Source: Papiliotrema nemorosa (Eukaryota; Basidiomycota; Tremellomycetes; Tremellales; Rhynchogastremaceae). Taken from it: a DNA stretch of 64,000 nt. The translations under genes and the position numbers were made by a program. The notes beneath the pieces were generated by a model. The model saw only the letters and a program-made list of their open reading frames with translations. It had not been told where the DNA came from and searched no databases. The stretch spans positions 414,858 to 478,857 of the forward strand of contig JASKOT010000011.1 in NCBI GenBank assembly GCA_032158125.1. Direction: 5' to 3'. Position 1 is the stretch's first letter. Each line of letters opens with the position of its first letter. Shown piece after piece: positions 1,690 to 64,000 of this stretch.

Positions 1690-2862
1690 ATGGAGGATGT
1701 GCACGAGGAAGCTCTCAGTGTAGGGTCGCCCAAACGTTTCATGCGTCGTCTATCTGATCCAGGCTCGTTATTGCATAAGAGTGCAGCTTCCATCGGAGGC
1801 TCGACAGGCTCAACACTGGGAGGTGGTGGCACTATGTGGGGCGAGCAGGGTGACGAGGAGAATACCGAAAGCTCGTCAACAGATAGCAAGCTCGACGAGA
1901 CTCTGACGGGACATTTGCCATTGCTGACGGCGGCTGAATCTACCGAGAGCCAAGCCCAACCCACTGGGGTCGGACCCATCGAGCACACCGGTGATCAGCC
2001 AAGATCGGTCTTGAGCTCCTCCCTGTCCAAGACAAGGAGAACCAAACAGAAGGTTTCATTTGCCCCCCGGAATTTCCATCTCATGCAGTCCATCCGAGAT
2101 CAGTTTTCGACAGAAGTGATATCAGACTTTCCAAAATTGACACCACGAAAGAAAAGTCTTCAAGAGACTCTTACATCCGTCAGGAGCCTGTCAAGTGATG
2201 ACGTCTATATGAAAGAGCATATCAGGATTGATTTGGAAGCGTGGAGCAAATTCGGACAGGCGGTGCTGCTTCAAGCAGTACCGGAGGACAGTGTCAATAC
2301 GGTAGTAATGGAATTACAACATGCTATGAGCGCCTTCGAACAAGCAGCAAGTCTGTCGACTGTCGTGTCCGGTACTAGTCGGCGGCCTGATACTTGTGAG
2401 CCTCGATCTGCTTATGATGCCCCTGTTCCACACTCATATTCAGCCCGACAGCTGTCCGACCAGGAGGTAAAAAGTCTTCTAGACAAGGCAGTCGAGCTCA
2501 CTGAGAAGAGCGATGTTGCGGATCGAGTCAAAGAAAGTTTGGGGGCGTTGTTGGAGACCATCGCAAACTCAGATTCCGAGACCCTGCCCTCATTATATCG
2601 CACTCTCGATTCGAAGACTAAGACCGCCTACGACCCCATTGGGCCGCGACGAAAGTCCGAGCCTAAGCGCACAGCCAAGGACGAGTCGGGACTCGAATAT
2701 CGTTCAGCGACAGAGGGCCGTCTGGTTGCATCAGAAGAGGAGGAACACCGGACTGAAACCGGGAGGCTGGAGGATGAGCCACCGATGCTTATGTCGAATA
2801 TGTATGGATCGAAAGACTTTGGAGGTGGCAGTTTCGGTTCTTCTGGGTATCGCGACCTTTGA
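1690..2862 (+). CDS. Tandem-family protein, copy 1 (unknown function)
   Basis: A single exon of 390 codons. The N-terminal 110 residues are Ser/Gly/Thr-rich and probably disordered. A conserved block follows: KVSFAPRNFHLMQSIRD near 120-140, then an alpha-helical core near 180-235 containing HIRIDLEAWSKFGQAVLL and a second helical segment near 258-310 (LSDQEVKSLLDKAVELTEK). The C-terminus is charged and ends with a Gly/Ser tail. The same blocks recur in the two genes directly downstream, which shows a local tandem family. No signal peptide, membrane span or known domain is visible. The ATG at 1690 is the first of the frame. The function is unknown to me; a helical protein-interaction module is the most I would infer. 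Confidence 0.75.
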   Translation: MEDVHEEALSVGSPKRFMRRLSDPGSLLHKSAASIGGSTGSTLGGGGTMWGEQGDEENTESSSTDSKLDETLTGHLPLLTAAESTESQAQPTGVGPIEHTGDQPRSVLSSSLSKTRRTKQKVSFAPRNFHLMQSIRDQFSTEVISDFPKLTPRKKSLQETLTSVRSLSSDDVYMKEHIRIDLEAWSKFGQAVLLQAVPEDSVNTVVMELQHAMSAFEQAASLSTVVSGTSRRPDTCEPRSAYDAPVPHSYSARQLSDQEVKSLLDKAVELTEKSDVADRVKESLGALLETIANSDSETLPSLYRTLDSKTKTAYDPIGPRRKSEPKRTAKDESGLEYRSATEGRLVASEEEEHRTETGRLEDEPPMLMSNMYGSKDFGGGSFGSSGYRDL

Positions 2863-3193
2863 CACCGAGTGTGGTCACTATAATGCTACCACGGTATGGT
2901 TAATGCCTTCGATCATTGACATCAATAGCATTGTGCATTGGAGAAGCATTTTCAGCTAACCAATCCGGCAAAAGTATGAAGACAGTCATTCCCTGCCTGA
3001 TCGCTGCACGTCCTACAGCTTGAGTGTGGCAATCCTACAATATGTAGATGAGTCATCACCTTTGATATTCTCCCCATGGGGTCCGATCTCCTACCTTTGA
3101 CAAGGCAGAGCAGGTGTATCATTGCCCGCTGAGATATATCTATCTTTCCCTCTACATCATTTGACATTGCGACTGACTCACAAGCTAAGCAAG
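2863..3193. other. Intergenic spacer between tandem copies 1 and 2
   Basis: 331 bases between the stop of copy 1 and the ATG of copy 2. It holds the 3' end of one gene and the promoter of the next. I see no open frame of interest and no repeat. Confidence 0.5.
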
Positions 3194-4358
3194 ATGCAGT
3201 CCGAAATGGGGAATGATGGCCGACCTCGACCGAGACGTCTGTCCTACTCCAGTACGTCAAGACACTTTGATCTTGATTCCACCAAGAGTGCTCCCAGTAC
3301 TGCTTCGTCGAGCGAGGCCGTCTGGGGCAACGTATCGTGGCCGAGAAGAACGGCCATCGAAGTAATTTCGATGGAGCCGTCCACATCGAGCGACATTTTC
3401 AACGAATTGCGTAAAAGTAGGGAAAGGGCCGAATGGAAGTCTCCCTCAATCCCCGATGTGGGAGAAGATAACGGTGACACCGAGGACAATCATACAACTG
3501 CCGAAGGGCAAGAGGATGAAAGTGTCGAAGATGCCGCAGACGAGACTGGAATGGCATCGTTCCCACCCATCAGATACGATGGCAAAAAACCACAATCTAT
3601 CATCCGCTCTGATGGATTCTCAGGAGGTCCAAAGTGGGAAGCTGGATGCCGAGTTGTCTCCTTCGAGTCTCTGGCTGCTTCCGACATCCAGGCTGTCAGA
3701 GACACTTTGCCGTCTGAGATCCAGCTGGATTTACCTGAGCAGAACGTAGAAATGGAACAGAAACTGAAGACTTTATTTAATAGACAACGCCGCTGCACTT
3801 GTGGAGGAAGATCTTACTGTCGATAAGCAGACTCGGACGGACCTACAATTGTGGATACGCTTCGGAAATGAGATTCTGAAAAGCCCAATTCCATCAGATA
3901 CTTTACAACTGACACTTACCGGGCTTGCATTGAGCATGAGAGCCTTGCGGAAAATGAACCTGCCTGAGGGAAAAATAGACCTGCTCACCACGGAGCAAAT
4001 TGATGACTTGCTCAAACGAACTCGGTGGATGCTCGGTAGCAAGGATTGTGATGACAGAATGAGAAGACATTTGAAGAGATCCATGGAGCGGGTCCAAGAT
4101 CCTGCGCGGAGGGCAGACGATCCACTTCTCCCGTCTTTGCAGCTCTTGTGGAAACGGACGATGCGTGACGCTGAGCTCACGGTAAGGGACATGGAGCGGG
4201 AGCGAGGTAGGTAACTTCAACACTCTGTGCTACGTACTGACAATTCAGACGCAAGAAGGGAGAAAGAGCAACGGCTGAGCGAGGCTCGAAGCTCCAGAGC
4301 GGTCTGGCGACGAGATCCCTTCGAGTACTCGTCGTCGGCACGACGGTATGGCCGATGA
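3194..4358 (+). CDS. Tandem-family protein, copy 2 (unknown function)
   Basis: Second copy of the family. Exon 1 begins at ATG 3194 (MQSEMGNDGRPRPRRLSY) and carries the block RVVSFESLAASDIQAVRD, which aligns with copy 1. The frame then changes. A 61-nt intron at 3746-3806 (GTAGAA...GAG) restores it and leads into KQTRTDLQLWIRFGNEIL, the counterpart of copy 1's core helix. That acceptor is weak, so a frameshift is the alternative reading. A second intron at 4207-4248 (GTAGGT...GACAATTCAG) leads to a basic, charged end finishing at TGA 4356-4358. The second helical segment is LLTTEQIDDLLKRTRWMLG. About 353 residues in this model. Function unknown. Confidence 0.65.
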
Positions 4359-4807
4359 GTTGTGCATGAGACACACACACAACGCACAACATGCATACAC
4401 GAGGAGAAGACATGGATAGTCCTTTCGATACGAAGGCGAGACCGCTATGGGCGAGATTCCATGTATCCTCTCCGTTGCTGCGTCTCAGGATCATTTCCGC
4501 CACGGTGACTGTTGTAACATTGGTCATGGGCTTCGGAAGGCGGGTAGCAGTTTCACATAATCTAAAATGTTCGCAATGTCATGTCCTGAGGCGACGCAAG
4601 GCGCTCTTGGCCGTCATTGGGTTTCCGAACGGTGACGACCTTTCAACTCCAACCCCTTGATGTCGGAGGTCGAATTTCCGTCAAAGACTTCTTTCTCAAG
4701 TACGTTGTCGCTTCTTTTTGTCTAGTATGACCCATACGTATTGGCACCGCCAGATCCTTCTCTTCTTTGCAGCATCTCACTCGTTCGCATACCCACTGTG
4801 TCCCAGA
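4359..4807. other. Intergenic spacer between tandem copies 2 and 3
   Basis: 449 bases. The last 100 bases are rich in C and T, as expected for a 5' leader. An in-frame ATG at 4726 would lengthen copy 3 by 27 residues, but the sequence there looks like leader rather than protein. Nothing else is supported. Confidence 0.45.
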
Positions 4808-5875
4808 ATGAGTTCTGATCATTCTCGCAAACCGCCTTTGGCAATTCGATCGCCAAGCGCGCTTCCCCCTGTTTTGACTCTAGCAGATGGCCAGAGCAAA
4901 AGGTTGAATCATGAGGCTGTCTCTTTCGTCTCTATGGCGGAAGTTGATAAAGAGCCTGTCGAGAAGTCAGAACAAGTTCAGGTCACTGAGGAGAGCACGA
5001 TCGAGGATGTCGAGGAAGGATTGAGCGAGGACGCTTCGAGCGTGAGAAAGGGTAAACGACCCATGCAGTTTACAGGCGATACCGGCGATTTGGACACATT
5101 ACCGGTCACTGATCCGCATACCTTGTCAAGGGTCGAGGCTGGCTCATCAAGTCGAAGAGAGGAAGGTCATAGGGATCTCCTTTTCTACGCGATCGAGGAA
5201 GCGACCAATCTTCTGACAGCCACGGAGAAGCAGCTTGCCCCACAGGAGAGAACTGCCTTGCAAACCTACATCTCAGCCGGAAATTCCGTTTTTTTGAACA
5301 AGGAGGTCAAAGAGTACTCGTTGCGATACAAGGATCTCGAGAACGCCATGGCACAATATCGAAGAAGTCTGCATACAGCTCAGGGAGGGTCAGAGAGTGA
5401 GACTATCTTCACCTAGATCGACGGTGCCGAACGGACGCTGATGGACGCAGACATGTTCTATCTGTCAGATTTGATCACTCAAGGCAAGAATTACCGAGAT
5501 AACGGTAATTGGGATCTAACCAAAACGGAACATGAAGATCTTAGAAACGACCTCGTTTTGGCCATAGAGTTTGCGCACGATGTACGAACGGGAAAAGACG
5601 TGGAACAAGAGACCATCACCTTATTCGAGGGTTCCCTGAGAAAGGCGATCGAGGCAGTCATCAAGGCTGGGATTACTGATGCACCAGTACCGGCGATGCC
5701 CTCAGAAGAGGGAGCCACCTCTGGGCTTCATACGGGCGTTGATACGGGTTATACTTCTGCCTACCCCTCCCGATCTCATTGGAAAGATGTGGAAACCAAG
5801 CAAGAGCGGAGATTATGGAAGCTCATGCGCTATCACTCAGCGGATTTGGGAGGTGATGCTTTTGACCTTCTTTAA
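4808..5875 (+). CDS. Tandem-family protein, copy 3 (unknown function)
   Basis: Third and most diverged copy. The ATG at 4808 opens MSSDHSRKPPLAIRSPSA. Exon 1 ends at 5396. The intron at 5397-5450 (54 nt, GTGAGA donor, GCTGAT branch, GCAG acceptor) removes an in-frame TAG. Exon 2 runs to the stop at 5873-5875, giving about 337 residues. The core helix ERTALQTYISAGNSVF and the following helix ending ENAMAQYRRSL match the Asp-Leu...Trp/Tyr...Phe/Ala-Gly pattern of copies 1 and 2. The second segment is longer here (NMFYLSDLITQGKNYRD and onward). No catalytic motif or membrane span is visible. The gene order suggests two successive tandem duplications followed by strong divergence. Confidence 0.72.
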
Positions 5876-6364
5876 AGAGACGTATTCGAACACTGTGAAT
5901 AGCTCTGAGATTGCGATATATACTGTACATAGGAGGATGGGGCGACGATTACAGTGTGCTCGAGATGTCGATGATATAGATGTCGAGGGCTTTGACCTGA
6001 TCCTGCACTCGGTGGTGAGGGGTAATCGACATCTGCGACAACACCGTCACCTGGCAACCATCCACTCGACCTCCTCTCTGTCTCTCGGTGCCGCTTCGTC
6101 TTGACCACAACGCATCAGTCTCCAGTCTCCAGTCTCCAGTCTCCAGTCATGCATCTCCTAGATCCCAAAATACGCTCAAGTACGACTGCATATTTAATCA
6201 TGCTTTTCACTCGGGATTCAATTCTCGTAGACGTCAGGCGAGTCGATTTGGTTCTGAGAACCCCGTCTTACAGCTCTCTGGAGAGCTCTTATAGCTCATA
6301 TCGGTCACGCTGGCGTGAACAAGCCATCTCAAAACCGTCACCTTAGATCGAAAAGTGTAGCGGT
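5876..6364. other. Intergenic region upstream of the tetraspanin gene
   Basis: 489 bases between tandem copy 3 and the tetraspanin ATG. It contains the heptamer repeat listed separately and no convincing gene. Confidence 0.45.
6116..6148. repeat. Heptanucleotide tandem repeat, about 4.7 copies
   Basis: The unit CAGTCTC is repeated without error for 33 bases. It lies about 220 bases upstream of the tetraspanin ATG and is a candidate length-variable site. Confidence 0.85.
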
Positions 6365-7320
6365 ATGCGGAAACTTTACCTCGTTTGGGGCTTTCTGGAC
6401 CTCTGTCTCCTCGCGGCCGGTGTTCTCTGCGTCACCGTGAGTGTTCTGTACATGTCCTCGAAGGACCGTCTTATCCTCGATCTCATACTCCAACGAATCG
6501 ACTTCAAATGTACGTCCGATTACCAATCATCAGCCGTGACCTAGCGGCCACCACGCCGTGTAGTGCCAGCTGACTTCAAGTGGGAGTTTTACTGGGCAGC
6601 ACATACATTCTCGCAACACTGCTTTCCGTCCCTTCGATATTGCAGCCCAAAGATCGACCCGTTCTTCTCAAGGTGCTGAATATATTGCTTATCTGTCTCT
6701 CAATATTCACCCTCGCTGTAAGTGTGGATTTCTCTTACACCGACGGGCTGACCAAATAGGTTGGAACGGTATTCTGGCTGTTCTCTTTACGTCAACTCGA
6801 TACCTTCAGCCAAATTTGGAAAGCGCAATCTGCCGATATGCAAGCTGCAATCCAAGACAAGGCGAGTCTACATCCTCAACCATCTGTGGAAAGTCATGTT
6901 TCAGTGGGCATCGTGCTGAGAGGCAGTTTTCATGTTGCGGTTATTGGAATGGGACCACAGCGGGTCTGTATGGTGCTGTCCAAGGGTTTTGCGCCGATAT
7001 GAGGTCCGCCGCCATCGCCCCTGGATGCCAATCTGCTAGTGCGTACATATGACAAATGAGTGTCAGTGACATACCGTGGGGCTGAGCGAAAGTCACCAGT
7101 GCCAAATCGCCCGGAAGTGACTTCACACTCGAGAATGTGTTCAGCTCAATATACGGGTTCGAAGCCATCATCATCATGTTCTTTCTAGCTACAGTGTGCG
7201 TCATCAAAGAGGTCCGTTTGTCGTCATTTCGAATTTTCGAGTCTAATTGACGATCAGAGAGAGGTGGAAGTCCGTTTCGCTCGTATCGACGAAAAACGTG
7301 GTGGAGGGGGATTTGTGTGA
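6365..7320 (+). CDS. Tetraspanin family membrane protein
   Basis: Six exons: 6365-6509, 6581-6717, 6760-6861, 6927-7038, 7093-7211, 7258-7320, giving 225 residues, a normal tetraspanin length. Four hydrophobic spans are visible: residues about 3-30 (LYLVWGFLDLCLLAAGVLC), LGVLLGSTYILATLLSVP, LKVLNILLICLSIFTLAVG, and near the end YGFEAIIIMFFLATVCVI. The large extracellular loop carries the diagnostic CCG motif (KFSCCGYWNGTT) plus later cysteines (FCADM, APGCQ). Intron 3 at 6862-6926 starts GCGAGT, not GT; this reading is required to place the CCG motif in frame. The protein should organise membrane microdomains at the plasma membrane. The family is certain; the orthologous group is not. Confidence 0.88.
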
Positions 7321-25735: not shown

Positions 25736-27099
25736 TCAAAAAGAGACAATGATCCCCTCCACCGTGATCGCCTCATCTTGACCGGGCACACGAACGACGA
25801 TTTGCGCTCCCTCTTGTCGCAAAAAGGTTGGGATGGTTCGACGGCGTCTCGCCTCTGCCTTGATGCGTTCGCGTTGTTTTCGGATCTCTTCACTCGCATG
25901 CGCCGCACGCTTCGCCACTTCCATGCTGATCTCAAACTCGTTTTGCTTTCCCCATCTGTTCAAGGCTTCCAGTGCATATGGATCTGGGATATTCATACCT
26001 GTAGCCCATGGTTCTATTGTAGGCGTGGTGTCTGCACATGTTTGACGACCTTGTGTAGCTTGTTTCTTGCTCAAATGAGACCCAATTCGTGTCAGCGAAG
26101 TAGGCGAACTTATCTCCTCATTTGGACGACATTGGCGACCTTGATAATACTCTTGAAGCAATACTATATCGTCGAGCCAGCTTTTGAAGCTTTCCCACGT
26201 TTCATTTCGTCGTTTTCCCTGACCTGGTGTTGTAGGATAGCCTGACACAACCCTCCGCCATGCCTCCCATAAGATTCCGTCCCCAGCCGGGTTCGCTATC
26301 CATCGCCTGAAAGCTTGCTCGTCGGATATACCGGCTTGCCAGGTCTGAAGGTTGAGGCCGAGCCAGTTGCAGAGCTCCTCCATCGAAGATGTGAGGATCA
26401 CTCGGATACATTTTGAGTTTGGGTAAGGCGAATGACATACACTCAGAAAGGTCGTCTGAAGGGTCAAAGAGGGTGATAAGGCTCTCAATCCAGCGAACAG
26501 GAGCGTTATCAGTGATCCGCCTGATGCCAAGAAATGGGCAAATTGGAGTGACTCGGGAGGGACAAGGAGCAGGTCGACTTGATAAAAGGGCTGGCAATAA
26601 GCGTGGTACATACTCGGACTTCGCGACCTACTTTGGCGCCATCATCCTCTTCTTCTACGATTCCCTCCTTATCATAACCGTCGGTGTTGTGTGTATCTTT
26701 CTCGAGCAGCTCACATAGCACCTTGAGGGATAAGACCGGCGTTTCGTAGTTGAATCGGGTCCAGTGAACTGCGCCGACCTTGTAAGCTACCGCTCCACAC
26801 CATCCGTCAAATTCCCTCAAGGGCGACTCGCAGCTCACATGATCCCATTCCCACGTGATGTCACGGACAGACACGTCAACAGACCCTCGTCCGCCATGAC
26901 TTGTGAAATGACCGAGCTTGATACCAGGCCAGGCGCAAATCAGGTCCAGGTCGCCATGGATCTCCTTCTTGGTGTAATGTCTTAACGGCATGATACCGAC
27001 AAAGATGTCTTGAAGAGCGGTCACGCAGTGATGTTTGAGAAGTTGGAGTTGCTGAGTCGTCATACGTTTCGCTTGCCGTCCAAAGGCTTTCCCTCCCAT
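25736..27099 (-). CDS. Nucleotidyltransferase-fold protein, paralogue 1
   Basis: Minus strand, 440 residues: exon 1 27099-26632, intron 26591-26631 (41 nt), exon 2 26590-25736. It begins MGGKAFGRQAKRMTTQQLQ and carries EIHGDLDLICAW, the Asp-x-Asp carboxylate pair expected of a polymerase-beta-type nucleotidyltransferase. The third carboxylate sits in FYQVDLLLVPPES just after the intron. A later conserved block is TSSMEELCNWLGLNLQTW, and the C-terminus has an Arg-rich helix. The N-terminal MGG, the HGD motif and QVD are shared with the two paralogues nearby. I remember this as an uncharacterised fungal family. Catalytic activity is inferred from the three acidic residues. It is head to head with paralogue 2. 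Confidence 0.72.
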
Positions 27100-27791
27100 G
27101 GTGACAAGTGAAAGAAGCTGGCTACTTGACAAAATGCGGAAAGTCTGACAGGGGGATTCTCAAGGTCAGAGGGCTGCGTTCTCCAAGTTGCGAGTGCTCA
27201 AGGATTCTCTTCAAGCATCATCAGGAGTAGAAATGCGACGACGGTCGACGTAGGGCACCAATGTCAGACATTGAAGGGCGCTGAATTAGGAGCGTCAAAG
27301 CGTATTCTCTTTCAATGCGGTCGTCTCGCCTCGGGGGCGCCATGCAAAGGGGATCTCGATAGGAACCAAGATACAAGCTCGCGGACTTCCAGATGTCAGA
27401 GACCTTGAGGGTTTCGAGTTTCTCATGCATGCAGTGATCGAGTCTGAAGGAGGGTCAATCGGAATGATGGTTGAAAAGCTCGACTCGTTTGTTTGTCTCA
27501 TGACACCGATAATCCTCATTCCCTCAGTACACACTTCACACACAGACCATGTACCACTATCGCGCAGTCACTCTCTATGACATCCTGCGCCCCGTATCCT
27601 CTCTCCACCACCGCACGGACGCCTCGTGGGCGCCTGGTCAACGGTGGACACGAGGTATCTCCTGCGGCCGCTATACTCGTGTCGCCCAATCTTTACTCTC
27701 TTTACTCTCTTGTAAATCGGCGACAAATCATCGTGGATAGATCTTGGAGGCAGCTTGAATCTTTGACATACTATCGCGAGCATCAAACAAC
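27100..27791. promoter_or_regulatory. Divergent region between two nucleotidyltransferase-fold paralogues
   Basis: 692 bases between the ATG at 27099 (minus) and the ATG at 27792 (plus). The head-to-head arrangement of homologous genes suggests an inverted duplication. I see no coding exon here that I can defend. Confidence 0.45.
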
Positions 27792-29349
27792 ATGGGAGGA
27801 GCGGCGCTCGGCAGACAGGCGCAGCGATTGACCACACCTCAGTTTCACCGATTGGTGGAGTATTGCATCCAACGTCTGTCTCCTTCTTTTTTCCCAAGAG
27901 TCGTCGCCCTCAAACCTTTCACCGACAAGGACTCGCATGGTGACATTGATCTTTTGTGCTCGTGGGACGAGCAGATCGACGCGAAGAAGGTGAAGGGCGA
28001 AGATTGGGGCGTAATCGTCGAAGGGGAGGACAAGGGGGTGGGGGCTCATCACCCCATTCAAACCCTCTCCCTGGCGAAGAGAATCGAGGAGAAGGAGCAG
28101 AAAGATGGAGCGGAGAACAGGGAGTTCCGGAAGTGGGTGATTGCTCTCGCGGGAGCCATCGAAGGTACAGAGTGGAAGCGGTCGGGGGCCAGCGGGGCGG
28201 TCATCAGCATAGGGGTCCCATGCAGAGTTCTCGAATCAGTAGAAGGCCATCCGAAAGACCGAAAAGACGATGTCCGTTCAGGAAAACCAGACTATGAGGT
28301 ATTTCGACGATTATGCCCTTTGAAGGAAATCACTGACGTTTCAGCCTTTCTACCAGGTCGACCTCCAGCTTGTACCCGCTCGATACATCGAGTTCACGGC
28401 CTTCACCCGATCCTTCTCAAACGTTATCTTGTCACATGCGATTAGCTATCTTTCTCACTGTACCAAGCTCCACGGTACGCATCTAGGAATCCGATATCTT
28501 CCTTACGTCGGGATTGAGCCCATCAAGGTGGAATTGACCTCCTCTCCGGTGGAGTTATGCGAGTGGCTGGGTCTCGATGTAGAGAGGATGGAGCGAGGAT
28601 TCGACAATGAGAAGCAGCTGTGGCAGTGGGCCACGAAGGTAGCCCCGGGAGGCAAGATCGACAAGGCTTGGAGGATTATCACCAATCCAAAGCGAAAATC
28701 CCGAGAAGGAAAGGGCAAGACCCGTAAAGCTGGAGCGTGGAGCATATTCGTAGTATGGTTAAGAACGGGAGAAGACAGCCCTTACGAATATCGCCGACAC
28801 AAGATTTCCGAAAGCGATACCTCCGGATCGAACGTGGTCAAGGCCCAAAAGGGTGTGTCAGCGATCGATACTCCAGAGACACGCTTGGGCATCAAGACGA
28901 CTTCGGATCTTCCAGATTTGACAGACACGCATGTCGTATCGGTAGTAGCTGTCCCCGCGACGGCCCAAACGCTCAACACCGAGGTCAAGACAGGTGAACC
29001 GCTTTCCGGAAGCACTGCGCGTGCTCTCACTCCAGCGCAGAGAGATGCACAGAGAAGCTTGGTCGATCCCGACTTCCCCAAGCTACTGGACAAGACGGCA
29101 AGGGAGACCATCGACCGATTCGGCAAAATGAGGGAAATAGAGGCTCTATTACATGAACGCAGGCAGCAGGCGATTTTGCTCGCTGAGAAACAGAAGAAGA
29201 AGTCTGAACAGGACATAACTTCTGAAGGACAAGTAGCCGCAAACTCGGACACGACCGCTCCGTCCACGCAAACCAGCCAAGATATAGTATCCCTTGCATT
29301 GCAGGTCGAAGAGCTCGCTGTGGCTGTGGCAGAGGAGAAGACGCTTTGA
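27792..29349 (+). CDS. Nucleotidyltransferase-fold protein, paralogue 2
   Basis: Two exons, 27792-28298 and 28345-29349, giving 503 residues. It opens MGGAALGRQAQRLTTPQFH. The metal-binding pair is in DSHGDIDLLCSW and the third carboxylate in FYQVDLQLVPARY immediately after the intron, the same joint as in its paralogues. Later blocks: GIRYLPYVGIEPIKVELT, SPVELCEWLGLD and WSIFVVWLRTGEDSPYEY. The C-terminus is extended by about 100 residues, ending with a Lys/Gln-rich helix (ERRQQAILLAEKQKKK) and an acidic tail absent from paralogue 1. Substrate unknown: RNA tailing, tRNA or small-molecule transfer are all possible for this fold. Confidence 0.73.
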
Positions 29350-34275: not shown

Positions 34276-34560
34276 GGCCACACATCTGTATGTACAATCA
34301 TCACGGTTGTATCGAGACTTCTGCCAGCTACTCTTACTTCAACGGCCATTCGGCCAGCATGATCAGGGCGCACTCCTTCTGCAGGTGTCGCGGCTGACAC
34401 ACAACCAGTTCACACAACTTGCGTGCAATAGCTTACCCTGATCCTCTGTCTACCTCATGTATGCCTCGTGCGCACATCACAGTGCAAGTGTTCTGAATGG
34501 AACTTCCTTCGCACTTTCAGTATACCCCGCCGTGAAAACATACCTGGCGAGTTGCTGAAC

Positions 34561-35797
34561 ATGGGAGGTGGATCATTCGAACACCGAGCTGAACGTCTCA
34601 CAACGGCGCAGCTCGTCGCGCTGGAGGCTCACTGTGTCAAAAGTCTACAACCCTTCTCCACAGGAATCAAGGCCTTGAGAAACCTCGACACCAAGGCTTC
34701 TCATGGTGATCTTGACTTGATGGTGGCTTCCGAGCAGATGACCAGAGGGATCCGATGGACTGGATACGATGGGGGTGTTATCGTCTCATCGGACCCAAGC
34801 GGTATGGTGTACGATGTGACGGAACATGCGAAGGGAGTTAGGAAGATGGGTACTGATGATGTGGATTATCAGCCGTGGAGCCAGTGGTTCCAGAGCATCG
34901 CCAGAGCTGTTGACGCGGTCCAGTGGAACCGATCGGGTGGAACGAGCGTCAAGATTGCCGTCGCGATTCCCTGCAAGCTCGTCGGAGCACACCTTGAGGC
35001 CAAAAACGGGGTCGAGGTGAGTGTTCAGATTAATCCTTGCTGACGACTCTCAGCCTATCTTTCAAGTTGACATTTGTTTGCTCCCTCCAGACGAATATAT
35101 CTTCAGCTGGTTCATAAAGTCGTACGGCATCGTCCGAATCACCCTTGCCTCGGCTGTCAAGTTTCTCACCAAGGACCTAGCATTGACCATCAATAACCTC
35201 AGAACATCCTACACGCCATATCACGGCCTTCCCGCGGTCGAAATTGCGCTGTCGGCTTCGCCGTCCGAAGTGTGTGTTTGGCTCGGTCTCGATTATGTCC
35301 GATGGGAAGAAGGATTCATGAATGTGGAAGAGTTGTACCTGTGGCTGACAAACGTCCCCGCAGACAGCGTTCTCGGAATGGCGCATCGAAAGATGGGCAA
35401 AGAGAAGATCGACTCGAAACATTCCGGGTCGAAAAAGGAGGCCAAGTTGCCAGAATGGAAGTCCTTCATTAATTGGTTGCGAGAGAACGATGATTCACCT
35501 TGGAAGGCCCCCGACAATCTACTCGCGGTGACCGTAGCTCCTCCGATCGAGATGAACCACAAGATTGACCCGAAGAATCCGAACGTCCTGGATGACATCG
35601 CCAAGGAGGCCATCGTGCTTTGGGGCAAATGGGAAATGTTCGACAAGGAGGTCCAGGAGCGGAAGGCATTGGCTGTGATCAGAGCGCAGCAGCAACAGCG
35701 ACGATCCAAAGCGGATTCCTCGAATGTCTCAACTATCACCCGAAAGATCAGCTCCTTGTCGCTGTCGTCTCGACCACATACGCCAGTTATGCAGTGA
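34561..35797 (+). CDS. Nucleotidyltransferase-fold protein, paralogue 3
   Basis: Two exons, 34561-35016 and 35054-35797, giving 399 residues. It begins MGGGSFEHRAERLTTAQLV. The acidic pair is in ASHGDLDLMVASEQ; the third carboxylate is in PIFQVDICLLPPDEY right after the 37-nt intron at the family's conserved joint. Further shared blocks are VEIALSASPSEVCVWLGLD and a late LWGK element followed by an Arg/Gln-rich helix (IRAQQQQRRSKADS). It lies 5.2 kb from paralogue 2, with the Sds3-like gene and VPS25 between. The three copies are well diverged, so duplication is not recent. Enzyme activity is inferred, not shown. Confidence 0.73.
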
Positions 35798-61761: not shown

Positions 61762-64000
61762 CTAGGAGTCCTTTTCTGACACTCCCACTCGCTCTGATGT
61801 CCTTGCCATGCCCATTGACTCACAGAGCTTCTTGAATCTGTCCCTGGCTAAGCCCTTGGTCAACAAGTCTGCCACATTCTTCTCTGTTGAAATGTGACGC
61901 AAGTCAATTGTCTTGTCTTCCACCTTCTCCCTGATGAAGTGATGGCGCATGCCAATGTGTTTTGACCGTTCATGGTGTACCGGATTGTTGGCAAGTGCAA
62001 CACACCCATTATTGTCATTGTAGAGTGGTAGAGCCTGATCATATTCTATACCCAAGTCCTTGATGAGCCTGAGTAGCCATGTTGCCTCTTTAGCCGCGTC
62101 AGTTGTTGCCATGTATTCTGCTTCTGTTGTTGACAAAGCGACAGTTGTTTGGCGTTTTGACTTCCAGGCAATTGGACCACCAAATGACTTGAACACATAA
62201 CCGGTTGTTGACCTCCTCGTCTCTGGATCACCTCCCCAGTCTGCGTCGGCATATCCAATGAGTGTTGGTGATGTTGGAGTATGCCGGAAGGTCGAGTAGA
62301 GGTCAAGTGTGCCTTTGACATAGCGCAAAAGGTGTTTGACCGCGTTCCAGTGTTCCATTGACCATTTTGACATGGATCGGCATAGGACACTTGCCGCATG
62401 TGCCAAGTCAGGTCGAGTGATGGTTGCTGCGTAAAGGATAGCTCCCACTGCTCTGGGGTATGGGAGGTCCTTTGCCAAGGCAAACTCTTCATCGGTTGCC
62501 ATGGTGCCTTTGAATCCAGGAGGTAGAGGTGTTTGATTTGGGTTGCAGTCGGTCAACCCAAACTTCTCTAGAAGCGAGACCAGGTAGTGGCGCTGTGACA
62601 AGGCAGTCGTCCTGGTTGACCTGTCACGGATGATGTTGAACCCAAGAAAGTAGTCGGCTGGTCCAGAATCTGAGCACTCAAAGGCTGAGTTGAGCTCTGA
62701 CTTGAACTGATCAAGTAGTTGGCGAGATGTCGACGCAATAAGTTGATCATCCACATGGATACACAGCATGATGAAGTTGCCGTCATCAAGGTGTTTGATG
62801 TAGAGACAAGGGTCGGCATTGGTTGGAGTGAAATTGTTTGTTCTCAACCAGGTGTCAAGTTGCTTGTTGAAACACCTTGGTGACTGTTTGAGACCGTAGA
62901 GTGCTTTGTTGAGTTTGACCAGTTTGTCCCTTGGTATATCTGATCCCTCTGGTGGGTCCACATAGATCTCCTCGTCCAAGTCACCATTGAGGAAGGCTGC
63001 CATGATGTCCACTTGATCAAACTCCAAGTCAAGTGCGTTGCAAAGGGCAACAAAGAACCGGATGGTTGTTTTGTGCGCAACTGAGGCAAAGGTCTGGTCA
63101 AAGTCCAGACCAGGGACTTGACTGAACCCTCTGGCTACCCATCTGGCCTTGAACTTGCTAGGTTGACCGGTGGTACCATCAATCTTCCTGGTGAACACCC
63201 AGCGGGCAGAGATGGTGCGCTGATTTGACCGTGGGATCACTTCCCAGACATTGTACTTGTCCATTTTGGCAAGTTCGTCCTTGATGGCCAACTCCCACTG
63301 TTGACCATGCTCAGATGTGACCGCTTGACCATAGGAAGTGGGTAGATCGTCCAGTTTGACCTTGTCATGGTCAAATTCCTCCTTGAGAGTGTTCTTAACC
63401 ATTTTGACCGCTGTTTGACCTGTTTCTGCTAGTAACATGGATGGTTGATCTCCCACTAGCTGTAGAGGGTCGTCTGACTCTGCTTCTGACACTTCGTCAT
63501 CATGATCAGAGTCAGGTTGTTGAGCAGGAGGCTGTTCTGATCGCACTCTAATCCGGTTTGACCTCCTGGGCAATTGAACAGGTTGATTGAGGTCAAGTTG
63601 AGCATTTTGACGGTTGTTGAGGTCAATTTGACCATTGTCGAGGTCAAACTGACTGTTTTGACCGTCCTGGAGGTCAAGTTGACCTTGGTTGACCTTGTCC
63701 TGATCATTGGTGACCAAGATATCATCCTCAGGTTCAATTGGAGGCGTGATAGCATTGTCTGGAGTGATCGGCAGTTTGCTGCTGAAAACCACATCTCTTG
63801 AGATAATGATCTTATTGAGATCATGACTCCAGATCCGGTAGTTGTGGGTGCCTTCCACATAGCCTACTAGGATGCCTTCCAAGTACCGGTTGAGCAGCTT
63901 ACTCTGCTGTTGATGCTGGCGGTAATAGCAGGTGATACCAAATGGCTGAAGGTGATCCATCCTGCGTTTGGTGCCATACCAGTGGTCATCTGGTACTTGA
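61762..64000 (-). mobile_element. Ty1/copia retrotransposon pol polyprotein, 3' part (cut by right edge)
   Basis: One uninterrupted minus-strand frame from the window edge to the stop at 61762, about 745 codons. Upstream of the internal ATG 63960 the frame continues as DDHWYGTKRRMDHLQPFG, so the start lies outside. Order: integrase C-terminal core (YLEGILVGYVEGTHNYRIW, IIISRDVVF), a spacer with QIDL-type repeats, reverse transcriptase (WVFTRKIDGTTGQPSKFKAR, QVDIMAAFLNGDLDEEIYVD, KALYGLKQSPRCFNKQLD, and the active-site box FIMLCIHVDDQLIAS), then RNase H (GYADADWGGDPETRRSTTGY, ALSTTEAEYMATTDAAKEAT, and RSKHIGMRHHFIREKVED). The order integrase, RT, RNase H defines the copia superfamily. No stop or frameshift in this part, so it may be recently active. 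Confidence 0.93.
63577..63695 (-). repeat. Imperfect ~30-bp repeats in the integrase-RT spacer
   Basis: Four imperfect units containing GAGGTCAA and TTGACC occur in tandem and encode QxxLDL/QIDLN-type repeats. The motif TTGACC or its complement is also dense across the whole element. Confidence 0.7.

Follow-up and report, generated by a model that had tools for sequence, protein, structure and literature searches.

A diverged tandem trio of helical protein genes in Papiliotrema nemorosa: a pair of paralogs and a probable third member

Fungal genomes commonly carry lineage-restricted tandem genes, and fungal recognition genes of the HeLo and NLR types combine helical domains with fast change. 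Three-helix units occur likewise in spectrin-type bundles such as SR_plectin_7 (PF21097), and the nearest solved shapes to the units described below are the three-helix bundles of the Hsp70 lid, of NagH (2ozn_B) and of EndoS. We analysed a trio of consecutive genes, called here genes 1, 2 and 3, in a window of 64,000 nucleotides from the tremellomycete P. nemorosa (assembly GCA_032158125.1, contig JASKOT010000011.1, positions 414,858 to 478,857, forward strand), which forms the right end of its contig. The three genes encode proteins of a gene family that is new, but of an ordinary kind, and that is without a named domain above cut-off, as the original prediction had stated. Judged from their sequences, genes 1 and 2 are certainly paralogs and gene 3 is probably a third member of the family.

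Firstly, we compared genes 1 and 2. Their Smith-Waterman score of 131 stands against 42.2 ± 6.8 for shuffled sequences; it was reached by 0 of 1000 shuffles (extrapolated p ~1e-8), and again by 0 of 1000 when local composition was preserved. The two proteins are ~25% identical over 146 columns. Taken alone, the block around the VSF...IQ..RD motif (the VSF block) and the first helical unit are matched by none of 2000 shuffles each and the second unit by 4 of 2000, while the score of the N-termini, whose match sits right before the VSF block, is reached by 18 of 2000. We also searched the whole genome (19.2 Mb in 68 contigs, with one or two candidates scored per query). At E<=10, genes 1 and 2 each matched themselves and the other alone, the mutual matches having E values of 0.245, 0.0297 and 0.077 (two candidates scored each); seven queries, six cut from the three genes and one the gene 2 piece carrying the VSF block, brought up no further copy at this threshold. 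At the nucleotide level, genes 1 to 3 and the sequences upstream of them gave no match to one another at E<=0.1. The old duplication and strong divergence that had been proposed for the array agree with the low identity of genes 1 and 2 and with the visibility of gene 3 to profiles.

Secondly, we assessed gene 3, for which the claim of a single family holds by profiles, as probable, and not by pairwise comparison with gene 1. The core profile of genes 1 and 2, aligned to the core of gene 3, gave 9.0 bits, above all 2000 shuffles (best 6.6). The same profile scored 7.2 bits on the spliced gene 3 and 5.4 bits on its single unspliced open reading frame (ORF), the latter by a narrow margin over the 5.0 bits of the best among 2294 ORFs taken from 274 kb of the same contig, outside the plus strand of the cluster. 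With a profile of unit 1 from genes 1 and 2, unit 1 of gene 3 exceeded all 3000 shuffles at 8.7 bits, and unit 2 of gene 3 reached 4.4 bits (p 0.009), so that both units of gene 3 resemble unit 1 of the other two genes. Among the fifteen unit pairs tried, with borders drawn after the alignments had been looked at, unit 1 of gene 3 paired with unit 1 of gene 2 (p 0.004) and with unit 1 of gene 1 (p 0.026). The comparison of genes 2 and 3 was weaker: 134 and 186 of 1000 shuffles reached the score over the whole proteins, and 31 and 32 of 1000 over the cores.

Several points weigh against a family of three. The direct alignment of genes 1 and 3 was equalled by 679 and 798 of 1000 shuffles, and with gene 3 as the query gene 2 came third among the non-self ORFs, behind two unrelated ones. 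For the N-termini, the score was reached by 104 of 2000 shuffles for genes 1 and 3 and by 409 of 2000 for genes 2 and 3. Whereas the pair profile picks out gene 3, profile-profile alignment with hhalign gave gene 3 a probability of 1.7%, with 1 of 300 shuffles higher and with the second unit of gene 3 as the aligned part. The VSF block, which had been ascribed to all three genes, is common to genes 1 and 2; gene 3 has VSF without IQ..RD, at 0.5 bits (p 0.084). Genes 1 and 2 could thus be a paralog pair that an unrelated helical gene adjoins by chance, in keeping with the missing block, the nil or weak pairwise signal, the poor structural model of gene 3, the chance matches that helical proteins give, and the post hoc setting of the unit borders. 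We regard this as unlikely, though well worth keeping in mind, since gene 3 lies above every shuffle with both the core and the unit profiles, adjoins the pair on the same strand, and has predicted helices in the same 3+3 order, albeit in a model whose alignment included genes 1 and 2.

Thirdly, we examined the predicted structures. The AlphaFold2 model of the gene 1 core, built from a three-row alignment, is a fair one (predicted local distance difference test (pLDDT) 71, predicted template modelling score (pTM) 0.60) and supports a helical part made of two three-helix units. This recasts the core helix and second helical segment of the original prediction: the core helix is helix 28-46 of the gene 1 model, that is, the middle helix of unit 1. 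Gene 3 was likewise modelled with 3+3 helices, but poorly (pLDDT 53, pTM 0.39), and this model is weak support because its intron was read through and its alignment included genes 1 and 2. We also considered whether the two units are an internal repeat. By sequence this was not supported for gene 1 (unit 1 against unit 2, p 0.47) or for gene 2 (p 0.99), and profile-profile comparison of the two units gave 13.5 over just 10 columns, a score that 7 of 300 column shuffles also attained. Since no sequence likeness between the units is detectable in genes 1 and 2, any such repeat depends on gene 3 (p 0.067 for its two units) and on the predicted helices. A Foldseek structure search returned 103 matches at E<=10 and none at E<=0.001; the closest shapes are three-helix bundles from many proteins, and the VIA-align matches are assorted helical bundles that mostly cover unit 1. 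In searches against PDB sequences, the best hit of the profile was SYF1 (E 0.11) and that of gene 1 alone had E 2.7.

Three coding genes are present on the same strand, as had been proposed (Table 1), and their frames are supported because in-frame codon usage resembles that of training ORFs and differs from that of off-frame and reverse readings. Codon scores were 0.029 for gene 1, 0.054 and -0.002 for the two halves of gene 2, and 0.05 for each exon of gene 3, against -0.014 to 0.112 for ten training ORFs (which also score themselves and are hence favoured) and -0.115 to -0.207 for seven off-frame or reverse readings. Gene 1 runs from a disordered-looking N-terminal third through the VSF block and the two units to a low-complexity tail. 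Branch sites of introns follow a known consensus, and the gene 3 intron was picked from eight candidates for its CTGAT branch-like site. The proposed exon counts of one for gene 1 and two for gene 3 are retained on this basis, while the three exons given as probable for gene 2 give way to one good intron and a likely break in the frame.

In gene 2 the coding signal changes frame near 3740-3770, inside a stretch over which the alignment with gene 1 continues: SEIQLDLP of gene 2 pairs with TEVISDFP of gene 1 before the change, and the stretch past it leads into the core helix common to gene 1. Nine candidate first introns (GT-AG or GC-AG) were tried. Eight would delete sequence alignable to gene 1 or gene 3 (the D-L-P end of the VSF block or what follows the break); the ninth, a GC-AG intron of 31 nucleotides, is improbably short. 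Because the candidates remove conserved sequence or are too small, the reading frame is more likely broken here, through mutation or an assembly error, than interrupted by an intron. The trio could on these grounds be relics rather than a working set, old duplicates under relaxed constraint of which gene 2 has been disabled, given that the frame changes within a block aligned with gene 1 on either side and that no normal intron preserves both sides. This seems to us rather improbable, since genes 1 and 3 appear intact on the inferred models and gene 2 otherwise keeps extended open frames whose coding signal is present before and after the break; the break would therefore be recent or an error of the assembly.

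No family reached its cut-off when genes 1 to 3 were scanned against Pfam and NCBIfam, and a literature search gave, judged by its listing, no paper about such a family. The weak match of gene 1 to SR_plectin_7 (12.3 and 14.6 bits), which covers residues within and past the core helix, is well short of the curated 27-bit cut-off, and the genes described here are fungal and without visible actin- or plectin-type context. Weak matches to DUF7607 (PF24580) and Arfaptin (PF06456), at 13.3 and 14.6 bits for gene 3 and 12.6 bits for the end of gene 2, likewise lie below cut-offs of 27 and 32 bits, and probably reflect generic helix similarity because the families differ from gene to gene. In a wider protein collection, queried with genes 1 and 3, each matched only itself and no ortholog was returned. 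In the same collection, a PX-PH-RhoGAP gene located 1.3 kb to the left of the window (L007:7121-8686, wider range L007:5267-8689) gave 352 matches at E<=1e-10, itself included, from 7991 scored candidates; among the matches listed (the best 120 of the 352), the closest non-self ones were metagenome proteins at 70% and 65% identity and the closest named ones came from Cryptotrichosporon argae (57%) and Vanrija albida (56%), two species of the Trichosporonales (Tremellomycetes). By these relatives the fungus would stand close to that order. Set against the 352 matches of the RhoGAP, the self-only results of genes 1 and 3 suggest a family that is restricted or fast-changing.

The strong divergence within the array and the want of relatives for genes 1 and 3 had led to an analogy with self-recognition or host-interaction genes, in which differences between fast-changing copies would discriminate partners. 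We consider this very unlikely, and there is no positive evidence for self-recognition or host contact by the trio. No signal peptide is apparent by eye in the first 25 residues (the N-termini being inferred), and no membrane-like segment was seen, the mean hydropathy over 19 residues staying <=0.91 throughout. Unlike HeLo and NLR genes, genes 1 to 3 have no known fungal recognition family and no NACHT or NB-ARC partner in their Pfam listings: HeLo, NACHT and NB-ARC are absent at E<=10, with HMMER filters discarding most weak matches. One survey reports that its search for NLR-related genes in tremellomycetes was unsuccessful (PMC4986451). Old age would also explain the divergence. Diverged local arrays are, moreover, unexceptional in this genome, because the window holds a second, about equally diverged triplet, of copies 26-37% identical piece by piece. 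More improbable still is a variant in which a tremellomycete-specific family of intracellular proteins, made of a repeated three-helix unit and multiplied in tandem, diversified to recognise changing partners and perhaps took on the role that NLR-type genes play in other fungi.

The second triplet is another unnamed two-part gene in three copies, at 25736-27159 on the minus strand and at 27759-29349 and 34432-35797 on the plus strand. It carries an HGD(I/L)DL motif that by eye is reminiscent of nucleotidyltransferases; the scanned pieces had no Pfam match, and one piece compared with the PDB gave chance-level matches.

We tentatively favour reading the trio as tandem paralogs of a lineage-restricted fungal family of soluble intracellular proteins, most likely docking or scaffold proteins. 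An old tandem duplication would have produced copies that retain the helix pattern while most residues were replaced. Each protein would consist of a disordered N-terminal part rich in serine and acidic residues, followed by two short three-helix units through which partners would be bound. For genes 1 and 2, the RRLS sites in the tail would be phosphorylated so as to switch or tether the proteins. Such docking proteins are the simplest reading given the old duplication, the kept helix pattern and the soluble intracellular look. RRLS occurs near the N-terminus of genes 1 and 2, gene 1 also has RRKSEP at residue 320, and gene 3 has neither. We take the RRLS of gene 1 to be a candidate site of the PKA type and, with the proline that follows, a candidate 14-3-3 mode-1-like site; its two RRxSxP motifs (RRLSDP and RRKSEP) presumably resemble 14-3-3 sites. 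On the adverse side of this docking reading, next to the points raised for gene 3, stand the structure matches, which are no better than helical bundles usually yield, the unit-1 profile, which does not recover unit 2 of genes 1 and 2 (p 0.28 and 0.94), and the frame of gene 2, which may be broken. The intracellular place, the docking role and the phosphorylation are moreover putative.

As for the surroundings, the next gene downstream (6361-7320) appears by eye to encode a small tetraspanin-type membrane protein with four helices, and two of its exon pieces had no Pfam match at E<=0.1. At the contig end, the minus strand of 63400-64000 looks by eye like a copia-type retroelement rather than a telomere; the ORF at 63459-63863 had no match in Pfam.

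Table 1. Positions, in the window, of the three genes and their parts
Feature	Position	Strand	Basis
Gene 1	1690..2862	+	single open frame, 390 amino acids
Gene 1 RRLS (DP next)	1744..1755	+	motif search; residue 19, RRLSDP
Gene 1 VSF...RD...D-F-P block, common to gene 2	2053..2133	+	0/2000 shuffles
Gene 1 unit 1	2143..2364	+	AlphaFold2 helices, model residues 4-22, 28-46, 51-77
Gene 1 unit 2	2458..2625	+	AlphaFold2 helices, model residues 109-124, 130-144, 151-164
Gene 2	3194..4358	+	frame 3194-~3766, other frame ~3768-4206, intron, last exon 4249-4358
Gene 2 RRLS, close to N-terminus	3233..3244	+	motif search
Gene 2 VSF...IQ..RD...D-L-P block	3656..3736	+	alignment, shuffles
Gene 2 frame-break zone (probable)	3746..3783	+	gene 1 alignment continuous, coding frame changes
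Gene 2 unit 1, including the originally predicted core helix	3768..3959	+	alignment, shuffles
Gene 2 unit 2	3978..4184	+	alignment, shuffles
Gene 2 intron, 42 nucleotides	4207..4248	+	inferred: GTAGGT...CTGAC...CAG
Gene 3	4808..5875	+	337 amino acids once inferred intron removed
Gene 3 unit 1	5156..5371	+	unit-1 profile of genes 1 and 2, 8.7 bits; three helices in poor model
Gene 3 intron, 54 nucleotides	5397..5450	+	inferred: GTGAGA...CTGAT...GCAG; contains in-frame TAG 5414-5416
Gene 3 unit 2, similar to unit 1 of the paralog pair	5453..5686	+	unit-1 profile, 4.4 bits, p 0.009; hhalign, score reached by 1/300 shuffles

The trio thus adds a family whose common helical unit is traceable where ordinary searches find nothing. 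If relatives were found in related species, it would offer a clean, small case of divergence in which the helix pattern is retained.

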